Assembly: GCF_005160265.1 (NCBI RefSeq)
Contig: NZ_CP039865.1
Coordinates: 954,828-1,018,827 of the forward strand
DNA from: Phreatobacter aquaticus
GTDB lineage: Bacteria > Pseudomonadota > Alphaproteobacteria > Rhizobiales > Phreatobacteraceae
Length of the DNA stretch: 64,000 nucleotides
Reading direction: 5' to 3'
Part shown: piece after piece, positions 1-13,426 of the stretch
Numbering within the stretch: the stretch's first letter is position 1
Layout of the letters: each line of letters begins with the position of its first letter
Program-made: the position numbers and the translations under genes
The notes under the pieces: model-generated
Database searches by the model: none
What the model was told of the DNA's origin: nothing
The model's input: only the letters and a program-made list of their open reading frames with translations

Positions 1-1541
1 TCGTCATAGCGCAGCAGGAAGCCGGAGCGAGTCAGGCGCTTCTGGAGCGTCTCGACGGTGCGGATGAAGCGCGGATCGTCGGCTGCGACGACCCCCAGCT
101 CATGCAGCAGCAGGGTGCTGGCATCGGCGCCTGCGCCGTCGAACGAGGATCCGAACAAGCCCTCCTTCTCGTTCCACGTCCGCTCCAGGATGGCGGACCG
201 GATTGTCTCGGCATGGTTGCGCCAATAACCCTCGCGGGCACGCAGATCGAGCTTGGCGGCGATCTGCGCAAGCTTGTCGCAGGCGGCAAAGCACATGGCG
301 GCGGAATGCGTGTGGATCGACTGGCGGCCGCGATATTCCCAGACACCCGCATCAGGCTGGAAGGCGCTGGCGACCGCCGCCTCGCCCAGCGTTTCGAGCT
401 CCTGGAACAGGGCCACATCACCCATCTTGGGCAGGCGGCTGTCGTAGAACATCTGGGATGCCGCGAGGATCACACTGCCGAACACGTCGTGCTGGATCTG
501 CTGGGCTGCCTCATTGCCGATGCGGACTGGCCCATCGCCATTGAACCCCGGCAGCGCATCGGCGATCCATTCCCGGAGGTCCTGCTCCGGCACGATCCCG
601 TAGACCGGCTTCAAGCGGCCGCCCATCTCGTTGGCGATGACGGCGCGGGTGTAATCGAGAAACCGCTCCATGGTGAGCGTCGCGCCGAGCTTGTTGAGCG
701 CATGGACCGTGAAATAGGCATCGCGCAGCCAGCAGAACCGATAATCCCAGTTGCGGCCCGAGCCCGCTGCCTCCGGGATTGACGTCGTCAGCGCCGCGAC
801 GATCGCGCCGGTCTCTTCGCTGGAGCACAGTTTCAGCGTGATGGCGGCGCGGATTACCGCCTCCTGCCACTCGAACGGCACGGACAGATAGCGCACCCAG
901 TCGAGCCAGTACTGCCGGGTCGACTTCAGGAAGATCGCGCTGGTGTCATCGATCGAGTTCGGGAAAGTCTCATCCGCATGGATGATCAACGTCACCGGCC
1001 TGGTCAGCGGAAATTTGGCTTCCGACGACAGATAGGCAACCGGAATATCGGACGTGACGCGCACGGCGCCAGCCTCGGAGACATAGCGGATGTGATTGCT
1101 GCCGGGGATCGCCTGTCCGTCGAAGCGGCCGTAATCCATGGTCGGGCGGATGATGACGCGGATATGCGGGCTGCCGGCGATCGGCTCGATCCTGCGGATC
1201 AGCATGGGGGGGCGAAACACGCGGTCATACTGCTTGAACCGGGGTGCGAAATCGGTGATCCGCACCGCGCTGCCGTTCTCAGCTGTCATCACGGTCCGCA
1301 GGATGGCCGTGTTGCGCTCATAGGATTGGGATGTGCTGACGACGCCATCCATGTCGACCCTGAGAACGCCGCGTTGCGGATCCTTGCCGCCGACCAGGGC
1401 GCTGAACAACGGATCGCCATCGATCCTGGGCCAACAGGCCCACAGGATGCTCGCGCGCTGGTCGATGAGGGCCGCCAGCGTGCAATTGCCGATAACAGCC
1501 ATGGCAGGCAGCGGCGCCCCCTGGGTTTCATGGGTCGTCAT
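1..1541 (-). CDS. Glycoside hydrolase family 15 protein (glucoamylase/trehalase-like), 3' end beyond window
   Basis: The reading frame is open from the ATG at 1541 to the window edge, about 513 residues. Residues around 260 read NWDYRFCWLRDAYF, the GH15 W-x-R-D signature, preceded by a beta-sandwich N-terminal domain. GH15 enzymes hydrolyse alpha-glucosidic bonds; bacterial members next to ots genes may be trehalases or glucoamylases. The start codon overlaps the otsB stop as ATGA (1538-1541), so translation is probably coupled and the two are co-transcribed. In related genomes otsA often follows, but here it would lie outside the window. There is no signal peptide, so it is probably cytoplasmic. 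Family assignment is firm; substrate is inferred from the neighbour only. Confidence 0.88.
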   Translation of the reverse strand, partial: MTTHETQGAPLPAMAVIGNCTLAALIDQRASILWACWPRIDGDPLFSALVGGKDPQRGVLRVDMDGVVSTSQSYERNTAILRTVMTAENGSAVRITDFAPRFKQYDRVFRPPMLIRRIEPIAGSPHIRVIIRPTMDYGRFDGQAIPGSNHIRYVSEAGAVRVTSDIPVAYLSSEAKFPLTRPVTLIIHADETFPNSIDDTSAIFLKSTRQYWLDWVRYLSVPFEWQEAVIRAAITLKLCSSEETGAIVAALTTSIPEAAGSGRNWDYRFCWLRDAYFTVHALNKLGATLTMERFLDYTRAVIANEMGGRLKPVYGIVPEQDLREWIADALPGFNGDGPVRIGNEAAQQIQHDVFGSVILAASQMFYDSRLPKMGDVALFQELETLGEAAVASAFQPDAGVWEYRGRQSIHTHSAAMCFAACDKLAQIAAKLDLRAREGYWRNHAETIRSAILERTWNEKEGLFGSSFDGAGADASTLLLHELGVVAADDPRFIRTVETLQKRLTRSGFLLRYD

Positions 1542-2377
1542 ATACCGGACTCCGTCGCAGCCGCGGTCTGACCATCCGAAGTGGCGGCAACGCCGGCCAG
1601 CGCGGAGAGCCAGCGCCGGACCTCGCTGGCGCTGCCAAACGACTCGTCGCCGGCATGAAAATGTTCGCCCCGCACCGTCAGGCCCCAGCCATCGGCAGCA
1701 CGCGCAACGGCAAAGGCCTCCTCGTCAGCCAGATCGTCACCGATCATGATGGGGCGGCGACCCGCGAACGGCGCGTGTCGCATGATCTCGGCCAGCGCGG
1801 TTCCCTTCGAGGTCCCGTTCGGAATCAGTTCGAAGACGGCCCGTCCCTGTTTGACGTGAAAGCCGAACGATTGCTCGTTGAGCAGCCGTGCCAGCTTGAT
1901 GCCGAGCTCACTCGCAAATTCAGGAGCCTGGCGGTAATGAATGGACAGGATCGGCCCCTTGTTCTCCAGCCGCACCCCCGTCATCGCACGCGTCAACGCG
2001 ACCACGGCATCGAACAGGGCAGGCGGCAAACCGATGCCGATCTGCTCCGCATGACCTGTGGTCTCCTCCGCGCCGAACGGCGCTGAACGGAATTCCAGCC
2101 CGTGCAGGCCAGACCCTGGAAGCTGAGCCGGCGCGAGATGTCGGTTGACCTCGGAGATGCGGCGTCCTGTCACCACCGCGACGGCACCTCCAAGCAGGCC
2201 CTGCAGACGGATGATGTCCTGGGGAAGGCCCGGCTCGACCTTCACCTGTTCGGGCGATGGCGCGATATCGGCGAGGGTTCCGTCAAAATCGACAAACAAG
2301 GCATAGGCCGAGGGTGTCGCGAGGATGAGGGGCGCGATTGCCTCCGGGCGATCATGATCGGGGTCGTTATCCAGCAT
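1538..2377 (-). CDS. otsB: Trehalose-6-phosphate phosphatase
   Basis: 279 residues, normal for OtsB. HAD-superfamily motif I is DFDGTLADI near residue 30 (nucleophile is the first Asp), motif II is VVTGR near residue 68, and the distal motif is GDDLADEEAF near residue 213. It dephosphorylates trehalose 6-phosphate to trehalose in the cytoplasm, the last step of the OtsA/OtsB compatible-solute route. It is the first gene of an operon with the GH15 gene, ATGA-overlapped. A perfect EcfG-type promoter on the minus strand (2457-2481) sits about 80 bp upstream, which fits stress-induced trehalose synthesis known in rhizobia. Confidence 0.93.
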   Translation of the reverse strand: MLDNDPDHDRPEAIAPLILATPSAYALFVDFDGTLADIAPSPEQVKVEPGLPQDIIRLQGLLGGAVAVVTGRRISEVNRHLAPAQLPGSGLHGLEFRSAPFGAEETTGHAEQIGIGLPPALFDAVVALTRAMTGVRLENKGPILSIHYRQAPEFASELGIKLARLLNEQSFGFHVKQGRAVFELIPNGTSKGTALAEIMRHAPFAGRRPIMIGDDLADEEAFAVARAADGWGLTVRGEHFHAGDESFGSASEVRRWLSALAGVAATSDGQTAAATESGI

Positions 2378-2456: not shown

Positions 2457-2481
2457 AACGCGCCGCTCCTGATGGGGTTCC
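2457..2481 (-). promoter_or_regulatory. EcfG-type (general stress sigma factor) promoter for otsB
   Basis: The minus strand reads GGAAC-N16-CGTT (GGAAC at 2481-2477, CGTT at 2460-2457), an exact match to the EcfG consensus of alphaproteobacteria. The predicted start of transcription near 2450 gives a leader of roughly 70 nt before the otsB ATG. It is divergent to a second exact match at 2521-2545. Confidence 0.7.
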
Positions 2482-2520: not shown

Positions 2521-2545
2521 GGAACGGCTTCGCGGCGCCGACGTT
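2521..2545 (+). promoter_or_regulatory. EcfG-type promoter for the ROK protein gene
   Basis: GGAAC at 2521-2525, 16 bases, CGTT at 2542-2545: an exact EcfG consensus. It lies 30 bp before the ATG at 2576, leaving a short leader. With the minus-strand site 40 bp away it forms a back-to-back pair that would induce both flanking operons together. Confidence 0.7.
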
Positions 2546-2575: not shown

Positions 2576-3658
2576 ATGCCGAAGCAAGCAAGCCCCGCCC
2601 CCAGACGGGAAAAACCCTCGGCAAGCGGTCTCAGCCATGGCGGAAACGACCTGCCGTCTGTGGTGGTGGAGAGTTACAATCTGGAGCTCCGCGACCAGAA
2701 TGGCTTCATCGGCGACAGGGCCAGCAGAAGCGCGTTCAATGCGAAGCTGGATGACTGGCGGTCGCGCTTGCGCAAGGTTGGCACCGATCCGCTGGGCGAT
2801 GCGGCATCGGAAGACCTGTCGAAGAAGCAGCTCGACGCCCTCATGAAGGGAGACGACGCAACTGCCGCGGCCCTTGTGCACGGAGCGATCGAGGATTTCG
2901 CCCAGGAGCTTGCGAAGGTCATCCGGCGCTTCATCCGCACCAATGGCTGGAAGAATGTCGAGCGCATTGCGGCCGGGGGCGGTTTCAAGGAAAGCCAGAT
3001 CGGCGAACTGGCCATCGCTCGCGCCGATGTCCTCTTGAAGGCTGAGGGCATGGCCATCGATGTCCAGCCGATCCATCATCATCCCGATGAAGCAGGCCTG
3101 ATCGGTTCAGCGCACCTCCTGCCAGCCTGGATGCTTGCCGGGCACGATGCCCTGCTGGCGGTCGATATCGGCGGCAGCAACATCCGCGTCGGGGTCATTG
3201 AGCTGAACCTGAAGAAGCATCCGGACCTGTCGCGGGCAACCGTCTGGAAATCCGATCTGTGGCGCCATGCCGAAGACGATCCGTCGCGGACGGCCACGTT
3301 GAAGACCATGGTCGACATGCTGGAAACGCTGATCGCAAAAGCTGAAAAGGCAGGGCTGGCGCTCGCGCCCATCATCGGCATAGGTTGCCCCGGCATCATC
3401 AAGGCTGACGGCTCGATCGATCGTGGCGGTCAGAACCTGCCAGGCGGGAACTGGGAGAGCCAGAATTTCAATCTCCCGCAAGCGCTCAAGGCGGCGATCC
3501 CATCGATCGGTGGTCACGAGACCTGTACGGTGATGCACAACGATGCCGTGGTCCAAGGCCTGGCGGAGGTTCCATTCATGCAGGACGTCAAGCACTGGGC
3601 CGTGGTGACCATCGGAACTGGGCTTGGCAATGCGAGCTTCCGCAACCGCAGCGACTGA
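2576..3658 (+). CDS. ROK-family protein with the two sugar-kinase lobes in swapped order
   Basis: 360 residues. Residues 197-204 are DIGGSNIR, the ROK/actin-fold phosphate-1 motif; 268-273 GIGCPG; 322-323 Asn-Asp carrying the expected catalytic Asp; 347-352 GTGLGN. The protein ends eight residues later, before the ExGH and CxCGxxGCxE zinc motifs that normally follow. Residues 85-185 instead resemble what normally comes at the C-terminus of a ROK kinase: a GDD-containing helix, then AGGG (133-136) and AGLIGSAHL (173-181). So the C-lobe appears to precede the N-lobe. Sugar kinase activity is possible but unproven, since zinc-site residues are missing. It is divergent from otsB and has its own EcfG-type promoter. 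I recall similar-length ROK proteins in Bradyrhizobium-like genomes, so this is probably a family trait and not a broken gene. Confidence 0.8.
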   Translation: MPKQASPAPRREKPSASGLSHGGNDLPSVVVESYNLELRDQNGFIGDRASRSAFNAKLDDWRSRLRKVGTDPLGDAASEDLSKKQLDALMKGDDATAAALVHGAIEDFAQELAKVIRRFIRTNGWKNVERIAAGGGFKESQIGELAIARADVLLKAEGMAIDVQPIHHHPDEAGLIGSAHLLPAWMLAGHDALLAVDIGGSNIRVGVIELNLKKHPDLSRATVWKSDLWRHAEDDPSRTATLKTMVDMLETLIAKAEKAGLALAPIIGIGCPGIIKADGSIDRGGQNLPGGNWESQNFNLPQALKAAIPSIGGHETCTVMHNDAVVQGLAEVPFMQDVKHWAVVTIGTGLGNASFRNRSD

Positions 3659-3757: not shown

Positions 3758-5623
3758 ATGCCCACCACACGACAAAGATTCCTCCTGACGAGCCTGCTGT
3801 CGCTGGTCGCCGGCTTCTCGTTCCTTGGCATCGTCGTCATTGCGAGCTTCGCGCTGGTCACCTACCAGCAGGACGCCCAGAGGGGCGTCGAGCAGGCGCT
3901 CGACATCGAAAGCGATCTCCACGGGCTGTTCTCGCTGCTGCAGGACGCCGAGACCGGGCAGCGGGGGTTCCTGCTGAGCGGCGATGAAACCTATCTCGCT
4001 CCCTATCTTGCGGCGATAACGGTCATCGACCGCGAGGTCGACGAGTTGGCCGCCAAGCTTCGGCGGAACGGGCGAGACCTCGGGGCGCTCACCCGCCTGC
4101 ATGACGTCATGCGGGAAAAGCTCGCCGAGATGGCCAGCACCATTGCGAGGAAGCGGGCGGGCGACGAGGCGGGCGCACAGGCCATCGTTCGGTCGAGCGG
4201 CGGCCAGGCCCTCATGACCAGAGCCCGTGACATCACGCGGCAGATGCGCATCGAACAGGGCCTCGTGCTGGAACAGCGCCGCAGCGAACTGGCCGACGCT
4301 CGCTGGCGGCTGCGGGCCGTCATTCTGGCGGCCGCCATTCTGGTGGCTCTCGTGGCGCTGCTGACGATCTGGACCTCATGGCGCCAGACGGCCGACCTTC
4401 TGGCCTCCCGCGACGAGCTGAAGCTGGCCAATGCCAAACTGATTGACCAGGCGCTTCAGCGGGAGAAGCTCGAGGAAACGCTCCGGCAGTCCCAGAAAAT
4501 GGATGCCATTGGCCAGTTGACCGGCGGCCTTGCCCACGACTTCAACAACATGCTGGCGATCATCACCGGCAGCCTGGGCATCGTGCAGCGGCGCCTGCGT
4601 CGCGGCGACACCGCGATCGAGAAGTTCATCGACAATGCCATGGAGGGAGCTGATCGCGCCGCAACGCTGACCCATCGCCTGCTCGCCTTCTCACGCCAGC
4701 AGCCGCTCGCGCCGAAGTCGATCGACGTCAACAAGTTCGTCGCCGGGATGGCTGATCTGCTGCATCGCACGCTTGGTGAGCAAATCCGCCTAGAAACGGT
4801 TCTGGCCGGAGGCTTGTGGCGCACCCACGCCGACTCGAGCCAGCTGGAAAACGCAATTCTCAATCTCGCGGTCAATGCCCGCGACGCCATGGGCGAAGGC
4901 GGGCGGCTGACCATTGAAACCCAGAACGCCTCACTGGACGACGACTATTCTGCAGCGCATTTCGAGGTGCCAGCCGGCCAATATGTGCTGATCGCGGTCA
5001 GCGATACCGGCTCGGGAATGCCCCCGGACGTCATCCGGCGTGCGTTCGACCCGTTCTTCACGACCAAGGGCCTGGGCAAGGGCACAGGACTGGGGTTGAG
5101 CCAGGTTTTCGGCTTCGTCAAGCAATCTGCCGGGCATGTGAAGATCTATTCCGAACTTGGGCAAGGCACGACCATGAAGGTCTACCTGCCCCGGTTCATG
5201 GGGCCGGAGATGATCACCGAAACCCCGACCGCCGGGCGCGCTCTGCCGGTAGCTGGCGCCAATGAAGTCGTGCTGGTGGTGGAAGATGAGGAGCGCGTCC
5301 GCCATCTCTCGGTCGAGAGCCTCCGGGAGCTCGGCTATACCGTATTGGAGGCCGATGGCGCATCCGCCGCTCTCCGGATCATCGATAGCCGACCCGACAT
5401 CGCGCTGTTGTTCACCGATGTGGTCATGCCTGATGTCAACGGCCGCAAGCTTGCAGACGAGGCCTTGCGCCGTCGTCCAGGCCTGCGTGTGCTCTACACC
5501 ACCGGCTATACCCGCAACGCAATCGTGCACAACGGCATGCTCGACCACGGGACCCACCTGGTCTCGAAACCGTTCACGATGGAGCAGCTGGCCAACAAGG
5601 TGAGGGAGGCCTTGGCAGGCTGA
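3758..5623 (+). CDS. Hybrid sensor histidine kinase with CHASE3 sensor and C-terminal receiver
   Basis: 621 residues. A transmembrane helix (about 8-35) is followed by a periplasmic CHASE3 domain with the signature QRGFLLSGDETYLAPY near residue 68, a second helix near 187-207, a coiled coil, the DHp motif GGLAHDFNN with phospho-His near residue 259, and a HATPase domain ending in DPFFTTK and GTGLGLS. A receiver domain follows with its phospho-acceptor Asp near residue 553 (TDVVMPD) and conserved Lys in SKPF. It autophosphorylates and passes phosphate to its own receiver; there is no DNA-binding output. No dedicated response regulator adjoins it. The DHp/receiver half closely resembles that of the kinase at 9946-12792, suggesting a common ancestor. 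Confidence 0.9.
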   Translation: MPTTRQRFLLTSLLSLVAGFSFLGIVVIASFALVTYQQDAQRGVEQALDIESDLHGLFSLLQDAETGQRGFLLSGDETYLAPYLAAITVIDREVDELAAKLRRNGRDLGALTRLHDVMREKLAEMASTIARKRAGDEAGAQAIVRSSGGQALMTRARDITRQMRIEQGLVLEQRRSELADARWRLRAVILAAAILVALVALLTIWTSWRQTADLLASRDELKLANAKLIDQALQREKLEETLRQSQKMDAIGQLTGGLAHDFNNMLAIITGSLGIVQRRLRRGDTAIEKFIDNAMEGADRAATLTHRLLAFSRQQPLAPKSIDVNKFVAGMADLLHRTLGEQIRLETVLAGGLWRTHADSSQLENAILNLAVNARDAMGEGGRLTIETQNASLDDDYSAAHFEVPAGQYVLIAVSDTGSGMPPDVIRRAFDPFFTTKGLGKGTGLGLSQVFGFVKQSAGHVKIYSELGQGTTMKVYLPRFMGPEMITETPTAGRALPVAGANEVVLVVEDEERVRHLSVESLRELGYTVLEADGASAALRIIDSRPDIALLFTDVVMPDVNGRKLADEALRRRPGLRVLYTTGYTRNAIVHNGMLDHGTHLVSKPFTMEQLANKVREALAG

Positions 5624-5774: not shown

Positions 5775-5933
5775 TCACGCCTCGTTGGTCGCGAGAAACG
5801 ACAGGATCAGGTGGAGAATACAGCCGCCGAAGGCAATGAACAGGAGATCGGCCGGCAAGCCGGCGCTCTGTCCAAAGCCACTATAGATGGAGGCACCTGA
5901 AAGCGCCGCCGCGCCCGCGGAGAGTGTCGTCAC
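5775..5933 (-). CDS. Small two-helix membrane protein (hypothetical)
   Basis: A GTG at 5933, preceded by GGAAGGG ten bases upstream, opens a 52-residue frame with two hydrophobic segments separated by a short loop (roughly 4-22 and 28-46). A TTG at 5939 is an alternative, and the frame is open further upstream, so the start is uncertain. It lies directly downstream of the 71-residue gene on the same strand and could be its operon partner under the promoter at 6289-6313. I do not recognise the family. Confidence 0.4.
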   Translation of the reverse strand: MTTLSAGAAALSGASIYSGFGQSAGLPADLLFIAFGGCILHLILSFLATNEA

Positions 5934-6025
5934 GATCAAATCGCCCTTCCGATACGCAACTTGAACCGGCAATCCCTGCCTTGTCGCACAGCCGCTTGAC
6001 AGCAGCGTGACCCATTCCGGTGCCG

Positions 6026-6241
6026 TCAGCGGACGACGCTCACGGCGGCATCCGCCACGCGCGCCAATGGCTGCGATGCCCAGCCCGCGGCGATCTTCTC
6101 GCCGAACAGGATATGACGCGCCTGCGCCCGATAGGAGTCGCGCGACAGATCGGACAATTGCTCCCAATCCAGAGGCGCCAACCGCTCCTGGAGAAACATC
6201 CGTTTGGCCAGCCGCTCAACCTTGGTCGGATCGAACATCAT
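6026..6241 (-). CDS. Small conserved-looking cytoplasmic protein (hypothetical)
   Basis: 71 residues from the ATG at 6241 with AGAGG about six bases upstream. It is amphipathic and largely helical, rich in Arg, Leu and Glu (for example RMFLQERLAPLDWEQL), with no membrane segment or signal peptide. Its best support is the exact EcfG promoter 48 bp upstream on the same strand. The family is not recognised; a small general-stress protein is the simplest guess. Confidence 0.55.
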   Translation of the reverse strand: MMFDPTKVERLAKRMFLQERLAPLDWEQLSDLSRDSYRAQARHILFGEKIAAGWASQPLARVADAAVSVVR

Positions 6242-6288: not shown

Positions 6289-6313
6289 AACGATGCAAGG
6301 GCCGATCGGTTCC
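6289..6313 (-). promoter_or_regulatory. EcfG-type promoter for the 71-residue small protein
   Basis: The minus strand reads GGAAC (6313-6309), 16 bases, CGTT (6292-6289): an exact consensus. The predicted leader before the ATG at 6241 is about 40 nt. Confidence 0.68.
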
Positions 6314-6496: not shown

Positions 6497-7381
6497 ATGA
6501 CCAGTACTGCACCGCCAGTCCTGCGCGTCTCAGAGGCGCCGTGGTCTACCGTATCCTGGAGCGCCATCTTTGCCGGCGCGATCGTCGCGACCACGATCAG
6601 CCTCGCGTTGCTGTTTCTGTGCGCGGCCGCCGGGTTCATGATGGTCTCGCCATGGTCGGGACAGGGCACGGATCCCAGCACGTTCGCGATCTCGGGCGCT
6701 ATCGCCATGATCGTCGTGCAATGGGTTTCGTCCGCCTTCGGCGGCTTTGTCACCGGGCGGCTACGCACCCGTTGGGAAAGCCTCCATCAGGATGAAGTGT
6801 TCTTCCGGGACACCCTCAACGGCTTTCTGGCCTGGTGTGTCGCGACGCTCGCCGTCGGGGTTCTCGTGAGCTCGTCGGCAACCATGGTGGCACGAACCGG
6901 GATCCAGGCCACCGCGACGGTTGCCTCCGGCGCGGCCGCCGGCATCTCACTCGCATCTGCGGGGAGCGAGCCACAGGGCGCGGACCCCACGGCCTATTTC
7001 ATCGACCTCTTGTTCCGCGCCCCGGCCGGATCGCCCGGACCTGGCCAGGACGCCGCGCCTGAGCGGCTTGAAGCGACACGGATCGTTGTTCGCAGCGTCG
7101 TGACCGGCGGGATCAGTCCCTCCGACAAGACCTACCTCGCGCAGATCGCATCAGCGCGCACGGGTCTGAACCAGGACGAGGCGCAGCGTCGCGTTGACGA
7201 CGTGCTGGCCCAGGTGCAGGCGGCCAAGGTGAAGGCGCAGGAAGCGGCCGATGCGGCTCGCAAGGCAGGAGCGCTCGGATCCCTGTTCGTCTTCCTGTCC
7301 CTGCTGATCGGGGCGTTCATCGCCGCGGCGGCCGCAGCCATCGGAGCGAGCTTCAGGGACAATGTCCCGCGGGTCGTCTGA
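6497..7381 (+). CDS. Integral membrane protein, hypothetical
   Basis: 294 residues from the ATG at 6497 (GAGGAT upstream). Hydrophobic segments lie near residues 20-47, 58-85, 105-130 and 255-285. Between the last two is a polar, Ala/Gln/Lys-rich stretch with probable coiled-coil character (about 190-250, DEAQRRVDDVLAQVQAAK). The layout suggests a membrane-anchored stress protein with a cytoplasmic or periplasmic helical arm. I cannot place it in a family with certainty; related rhizobial proteins are often left as hypothetical. An in-frame extension upstream to 6020 crosses the divergent promoter region and the micro-protein, so I reject it. Confidence 0.7.
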   Translation: MTSTAPPVLRVSEAPWSTVSWSAIFAGAIVATTISLALLFLCAAAGFMMVSPWSGQGTDPSTFAISGAIAMIVVQWVSSAFGGFVTGRLRTRWESLHQDEVFFRDTLNGFLAWCVATLAVGVLVSSSATMVARTGIQATATVASGAAAGISLASAGSEPQGADPTAYFIDLLFRAPAGSPGPGQDAAPERLEATRIVVRSVVTGGISPSDKTYLAQIASARTGLNQDEAQRRVDDVLAQVQAAKVKAQEAADAARKAGALGSLFVFLSLLIGAFIAAAAAAIGASFRDNVPRVV

Positions 7382-7492
7382 GAACCTCACCACGGATCAA
7401 ACCATCGTCAGCCGCGCCTTGCGAGAGCAGGTGCGGCTGACGCCGTCTGGGGTCCGGGAGATCTGCGCGGAACGCCAAATCAGACGTCCGGA

Positions 7493-7517
7493 GGAACGAT
7501 CGAGAGGCCCGGCTGTT
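7493..7517 (+). promoter_or_regulatory. EcfG-like promoter for the DUF892 gene
   Basis: GGAAC (7493-7497), 16 bases, TGTT (7514-7517): one mismatch to consensus. It is about 80 bp upstream of the DUF892 ATG. YciF/YciE-like proteins are known stress-induced products, which supports the call. Confidence 0.45.
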
Positions 7518-7595
7518 GGCCTGATACCACCGCGCACCGGTCCTTTTCCGGTCCGCTGCGCATCCCGACAGCCACGCATTCAGGGAGGTCCCGCC

Positions 7596-8105
7596 ATGGG
7601 CTGGTTCTCGAAGGACATTCAGACGATGGACGATCTGTTCGTCCATACGCTCCGCGACATCTACTACGCGGAGAACCAGATTCTCAAAGCTCTGCCGACG
7701 ATGATCGACAAGGCGAGCGACGCGCAGCTCAAGGACAGCTTTGCCGCGCATCAACGCGAGACGGAAGGCCAGATCAGCCGCCTTGAAGAGGTGTTCCGGC
7801 TGCACGGCGTCGATGTGAAGGGCGTCGACTGCCCGGCGATCGATGGAATTCTCGAGGAGACCGACGAGATCAGCCGCGAGATCGCCGATAAGAAGGTTCT
7901 CGATGCCGCGCTCATCGCCGCCGGCCAGGCCGTCGAACACTACGAAATGACCCGATACGGCACGCTCGTGGCCTGGGCCAAGCAGCTCGGCCGCAACGAT
8001 TGCGCTGCCTTGCTGCAGAAGAACCTCGACGAGGAAAAGGCGGCCGACACCAAGCTGACCTCCCTCGCAGAGGCGCGGATCAACCTGCGCGCCGTCAGCG
8101 CCTGA
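7596..8105 (+). CDS. DUF892 (YciE/YciF-like) ferritin-fold protein
   Basis: 169 residues, the usual family length. ATG at 7596 follows AGGGAGG (7582-7588). The sequence opens with the family hallmark MDDLFVHTLRDIYYAENQILKALP and has Glu/His residues spaced as in a four-helix ferritin-like bundle (YAENQ, HQRETE, HYEMTRYG, DEEKAAD). Members bind diiron or manganese in known structures and are induced by osmotic or general stress, although their reaction is unclear. It probably responds to EcfG here. Confidence 0.9.
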   Translation: MGWFSKDIQTMDDLFVHTLRDIYYAENQILKALPTMIDKASDAQLKDSFAAHQRETEGQISRLEEVFRLHGVDVKGVDCPAIDGILEETDEISREIADKKVLDAALIAAGQAVEHYEMTRYGTLVAWAKQLGRNDCAALLQKNLDEEKAADTKLTSLAEARINLRAVSA

Positions 8106-13401: not shown

Positions 13402-13426
13402 AACGCACCGGACATGGATCGGTTCC
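13402..13426 (-). promoter_or_regulatory. EcfG-type promoter for the receiver/kinase unit
   Basis: The minus strand reads GGAAC (13426-13422), 16 bases, CGTT (13405-13402): exact consensus. The predicted start near 13394 leaves about 120 nt of leader before the ATG at 13272, or less if translation starts further upstream. Confidence 0.6.

Follow-up and report, generated by a model that had tools for sequence, protein, structure and literature searches.

We analysed a stretch of 64,000 nucleotides from Phreatobacter aquaticus (contig NZ_CP039865.1, positions 954,828 to 1,018,827; hereafter the window), in which the open reading frame at 2576..3658 (+ strand), supported by full-length relatives, encodes a ROK-like protein of 360 amino acids. 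Both halves of this protein are ROK, their order is exchanged and the exchange is fixed across the whole family, and we are highly confident that the protein is a natural circular permutant related to the ROK sugar kinases. To the fuller explanation that we prefer, in which this permuted ROK relative is predicted to be a hexose kinase made under stress, we assign a probability of about 0.6.

Exchanged order of the ROK lobes

The protein starts with a variable and disordered tail (residues 1-20, 2576..2635, +; predicted local distance difference test, pLDDT, below 50 over residues 1-21), which is followed by the invariant His21 (2636..2638, +). Residues 21-188 (2636..3139, +) are equivalent to the second half of a ROK protein by hhalign and by the predicted model with VIA-align, and carry the degenerate zinc region GFIGDRASRSAF, the glycines G134-G136 and AGLIGSAHL (173-181). 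Residues 189-360 (3140..3655, +) are equivalent to the first half by Pfam PF00480 and VIA-align, and carry DIGGSNIR (197-204), GIGCPG (268-273), NLPGGNW, HNDA (321-324) and GTGLGN (347-352), with the stop codon 8 residues further on. The blocks and the chain end thus lie where a previous sequence-only reading had put them, with GGG and AGLIGSAHL first and the DIGGSNIR, GIGCPG, NDA and GTGLGN blocks last. The Pfam ROK model covers only residues 194-354, in the later half of the chain, which correspond to positions 2-138 of the 294 in the profile.

We then compared a profile of the family with a canonical reference of 36 ROKs, 14 of 50 candidates having been dropped on failing the motif test. 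In native order, two separate matches were obtained in crossed order, residues 192-357 on canonical positions 4-144 (score 77.5) and residues 41-184 on canonical positions 181-302 (score 50.7), and the doubled family profile gave a single alignment over canonical 4-302 with a score of 111.8. When the profile was cut circularly at 27 places, the score of 77.3 for the native order rose to a maximum of 112.0 at residue 189, where 278 columns were aligned over canonical 4-302, with runners-up of 99-100 at cuts 137-176; this supports the circular permutation between the GTG motif and the C-lobe that had been proposed. Scored separately, the N-terminal half reached 52.1 against the canonical second half and 11.4 against the first, and the C-terminal half 72.5 against the first and 18.1 against the second. 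For comparison with the N-half match of 50.7, 200 column shuffles averaged 14.3 and never exceeded 26.7, and the reversed profile gave 15.4. Putting the halves back in canonical order made the Pfam ROK match no longer than before in three proteins, which neither helps nor breaks the case, and gave no end-to-end sequence match in the PDB, which is neutral for the permutation.

Predicted models show the ROK fold in both lobes. When residues 21-189 were modelled alone, the first 19 structural matches were ROK chains (by title or recognised as such), and on ROK chains of ~300 residues the matched range was ~110-300, i.e. the second half, in line with the expectation that residues 1-190 would resemble the ROK C-lobe. 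On 3r8e, the model of the N-terminal half alone fell on 118-290 and the later half of the whole model on 0-145, and the halves were split likewise on 2ap1, 2qm1, 6q26 and 2yhw. The top Foldseek match of the model was human hexokinase 2 (HK2) with a TM score of 0.28, and by VIA-align residues 47-342 span HK2 293-674; because HK2 consists of two kinase domains in tandem, the model bridges both as a permutant could.

The same order was found throughout the family. We aligned 49 loci (36 context loci, 8 genome-contig loci and 5 others), all chosen because they match the window protein strongly, several of them sharing a genome or species. The order GGG, DIGG, HND, GTG was present in 49/49, and the chains ended 6 to 39 residues past GTGLGN. 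A Lys-rich C-terminal tail extends some 10-30 residues past the GTG hairpin at this new terminus in L010, L027-L031, L089, L092 and other Bradyrhizobium-type members. There were 55 invariant positions, the first being His21 and the last Asn352; ahead of His21, no column was conserved in at least 47 of the 49. The invariant residues include D197, G199, G200 and N202 of the DxGGT phosphate-1 motif (position 201 being T in 37 and S in 12), H321-N322-D323 with the catalytic Asp of ND, and G347-T348-G349 of the GTG phosphate-2 motif, as well as Q286, N287 and W293. G134-G136, D171, G174, L175 and G177 are likewise invariant, and belong to GGG and AGxxGA, the adenosine-side motifs of ROK. Furthermore, a family profile rearranged into canonical order, which was built from seven members and run on 398 Pseudomonadota genomes with at most 5 candidates scored per genome, detected the family at 24 loci, always as a pair of adjoining pieces, ~171-338 and then 1-172, so that the exchanged order holds in 24/24 of these loci as well. 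Neither of the two refuting outcomes named in the sequence-only reading, a mismatch of the first lobe in the model or canonical order in the homologues, was obtained. The remaining matches were weak (≤27 bits) and lay in the first half of the profile, except for one short family fragment.

Full-length members occur in 10 of 60 other genomes of a relatives sample, together with one deletion remnant (12/61 genomes matched, the window's own included), and the genome-contig collection holds 9 family loci. In the 398 genomes, matches above 400 bits gave 24 loci in 22 genomes, and 23 further genomes matched weakly at E 0.001, mostly in the later half. Among plasmids, 206 records matched, 204 of them with at least 80% cover, mainly from Rhizobium (111) and Sinorhizobium (79). 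Pfam ROK was found at E ≤1 in 17/19 members scanned. The tree contains a clade of 40 rows mainly from the taxonomic order of the window and a clade of nine rows with Variovorax, which includes five other genomes of the same phylum not marked as of the window's class. Two shortened copies were seen. A same-genus copy (G005, L108:9340-9720) has an in-frame internal deletion joining ~57 residues of the conserved start to the last 17, still behind a perfect EcfG box, although an assembly fault is possible; and G254 carries a ~42-codon fragment of the family start (C151:167216-167341) some 3.6 kb from a full copy, with another full copy on C102, the fragment being a partial duplication.

Break point and loss of the ExGH and zinc signatures

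In canonical ROKs, GTG and ExGH were both found in 34 of 36 sequences, separated by 20 residues in 32 and by 18 in 2, and the distance from the ExGH His to CxCG was 15 residues in 23 of the 29 that have the zinc motif. In an ungapped register test against 23 canonical ROKs, placing His21 on the ExGH His was the best of 51 offsets, with a score of −0.43, itself below zero, against a mean of −1.09 and a standard deviation (SD) of 0.22, i.e. ~3 SD above the rest. This register also places Gly43, Ser50 and Phe54 on the Gly, the Ser and the hydrophobic residue of GCxExxxSxxxL. Because of it, the new N-terminus appears to start at or just before the ExGH His, and His21 is its probable remnant. The claim that the ExGH and zinc motifs are missing therefore holds for the Glu and the zinc cysteines, but not for the invariant histidine. 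No conserved Glu was found ahead of His21, leaving the His alone; the GCxE Glu is replaced by Gly46, next to the invariant Asp47; and instead of the zinc motif, defined as GHx9-11CxCGx2G(C/H)xE in the accessible part of PMC2742894, the region reads GF.GD..S..AF, with its cysteines replaced. Because the lobe order and the ExGH and zinc signatures deviate, the protein is not a regular member of ROK.

We suggest that a cut in the hairpin that follows the phosphate-2 (GTG) loop, at the ExGH His or immediately ahead of it, opened the canonical chain, whose original C-terminal end (the AGLIG helix) became connected to its original first strand (DIGG). The break would have cost about a dozen residues, the ExGH Glu among them, and the zinc site may have decayed.

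Active site and predicted function

The sugar-binding residues given for GNE are N516, D517, E566, H569 and E588 (PMC2742894, in part), and for PsNagK, D105 is given as catalytic base, D6 for the metal and T10 and T132 for the phosphate (PMC10031466, in part). By alignment, the base, the metal Asp, the Asn and the phosphate Thr/Ser are kept in the family, the His is probably kept, and both Glu are lost. Thus the fold and the residues of ATP binding and phosphoryl transfer (Asp197, Asn322, Asp323, Thr348, GGG) are retained, and the protein is homologous to ROK and probably works like one.

A non-enzymatic role for the permuted fold, as a sugar- or nucleotide-binding stress sensor or scaffold in which ligand binding closes the lobes to signal, is the strongest competitor, which we nevertheless consider unlikely. 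It is favoured by the loss of the zinc cysteines and of the Glu in both ExGH and GCxE, both Glu being sugar ligands according to the available part of PMC2742894, and by gene neighbours that differ between genomes and mark no single pathway. However, D323, D197 and T348, the equivalents of the base, the metal ligand and a phosphate ligand with roles like those of PsNagK D105, D6 and T132, are invariant in 49/49, an invariance not obviously required of a pure sensor, and no DNA-binding domain was found by Pfam. Of the possible roles put forward in the sequence-only reading, a sugar sensor or a kinase with altered regulation, the kinase is favoured because the catalytic residues are invariant. 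Two other roles were rejected: a DNA-binding regulator, since Pfam gave no helix-turn-helix (HTH) domain up to E 10 and only 20 residues precede His21, 1-21 being disordered; and a defence protein, since there was no PADLOC match.

We prefer a hexose kinase made under stress, given that the phosphoryl-transfer residues do not vary and that OtsA, encoded nearby, uses glucose-6-phosphate (PMC3188799, in part). Under the general stress response, directed by sigma EcfG, the protein would be made together with OtsB, the GH15 protein and OtsA, and would phosphorylate a hexose; in the simplest case this would be glucose, yielding the glucose-6-phosphate required by OtsA to make trehalose-6-phosphate. 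That the protein is an active hexose kinase serving osmolyte synthesis is put forward tentatively, as a prediction somewhat short of even odds.

Origin of the exchanged order

An identical final order would arise if split ROK lobes that had evolved as separate half-genes were fused late and in reverse, without any tandem duplication, and no tandem-duplicated intermediate or canonical-order sister was met in the 398 Pseudomonadota genomes, where at most 5 candidates were scored per genome and weaker sisters could escape. We regard such a fusion as improbable compared with the permutation of one ancestral chain, since a single active site requires both halves, and since all 48 pieces above 170 bits pair within the 24 family loci of the 398 genomes, free half-genes not having been sought separately. 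Moreover, the remnant in G005 retains both ends and represents an internal deletion. Explanations by chance matches of motifs, by a chimera due to a frameshift or by faulty annotation, for which only the weak single-sequence Pfam score of the N-terminal half speaks, are refuted by the shuffle controls and by conservation, with the same order in 49/49 loci and in the 204 of 206 plasmid records that have at least 80% cover.

Promoter boxes and gene neighbourhood

By motif match, a perfect EcfG-type promoter box, GGAAC-N16-CGTT, lies upstream of the ROK-like gene at 2521..2545 (+), and a second perfect box at 2457..2481 (−) faces the divergent otsB (trehalose-phosphatase, 1538..2377, −; Pfam PF02358). 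The stress promoter and the trehalose neighbour of the sequence-only reading are thus both present, the promoter as a sequence motif. GGAAC-N16-CGTT is given as the EcfG1 motif of R. etli in the accessible part of PMC3892343. A gene for a GH15/trehalase-like glycoside hydrolase runs off the window start (1..1541, −; Pfam PF00723 and PF19291), and otsA follows it just outside the window on the same strand as otsB (G000:C1:952350-953738, −). Directly downstream of the ROK-like gene, a CHASE3 hybrid histidine kinase with a receiver domain is encoded at 3758-5623 (+), and within this stress island it is a possible input of the stress response. The island extends further into the window, with a DUF892 gene at 7362-8105 and two more perfect boxes at 6289-6313 (−), facing a small open reading frame at 5775-6167 (−), and at 13402-13426 (−).

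The window start lies in the densest cluster of perfect GGAAC-N16/17-CGTT boxes in the genome, with 11 in 30 kb against 0.58 expected, and nepR lies 11.6 kb before the window start. Genome-wide, the box has 95 matches and its reversed pattern 71, so that one box by itself is little proof, and the cluster and the conservation carry the weight. Upstream of the 49 loci, a perfect box was present in 20, a box with a single mismatch in 14 and none in 15; the background is 68 boxes in 1.27 Mb of strand. The binomial P of 1e-25 is overstated, as related loci were treated as independent. The Variovorax clade has a perfect box in 0/9, as expected because EcfG is described as confined to Alphaproteobacteria (PMC3892343, in part).

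A divergent otsB was found in 10/44 contexts, including R. etli p42c, Shinella and R. leguminosarum. On pSymB of S. meliloti, the annotation of the divergent gene is that of a peptidase of an osmoprotectant (NAGGN) system, and other genomes have varying neighbours, which include ferritin-like, DUF892 and response-regulator genes.

Comparison with known systems and significance

The family shares with ROK proteins (PF00480; glucokinases, NanK, NagK) both lobes, by profile and fold, and the motifs DxGG(T/S), ND, GTG, GGG and AGxxG, but it differs in its swapped lobes, in the lack of the zinc cysteines and the ExGH Glu, and in its new termini, which lie between the GTG hairpin and the His of ExGH. 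The best matches among solved structures were the human GNE ManNAc kinase 2yhw for the later half and the sugar kinase 3r8e for the earlier half. ROK regulators of the NagC/Mlc type (1z05, Mlc 3bp8, 1z6r) have the same core fold, but in the window protein ~20 disordered residues, and no HTH, precede the second-half lobe. A sequential aligner bridges the two domains of the tandem hexokinases HK1 and HK2 with the permuted halves, whereas the window protein is one chain of 360 amino acids with one motif set and no duplication. EcfG controls trehalose synthesis by otsA/otsB in B. diazoefficiens (PMC8092242, in part), the same type of stress control with the same trehalose-6-phosphate pathway adjoining, although the main text of that paper mentions neither ROK nor glucokinase. 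No literature on a permuted ROK kinase or on this family was found among the matches listed, which is weak evidence as most subscription papers lay outside the search. In databases the protein is named plainly a ROK family protein, yet half of the chain lies outside the Pfam match.

Rhizobia and other Proteobacteria share the swapped order, and the fixation of a circular permutation in a natural family of this size puts to the test whether ROK and actin-fold kinases need the usual path of the chain to close their two lobes. In its most speculative form, the prediction is that this is a natural, long-fixed permutant of an actin-fold (ASKHA) sugar kinase, in which the inter-lobe chain path was re-wired and the zinc site lost, and which may now be an active, stress-specific kinase that, in rhizobia and other Proteobacteria, commits hexose to osmolyte synthesis under the sigma factor of the general stress response. 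The link with the general stress response and, in some genomes, with trehalose or osmolyte genes allows its function to be tested directly in the tractable Sinorhizobium meliloti and Rhizobium etli.
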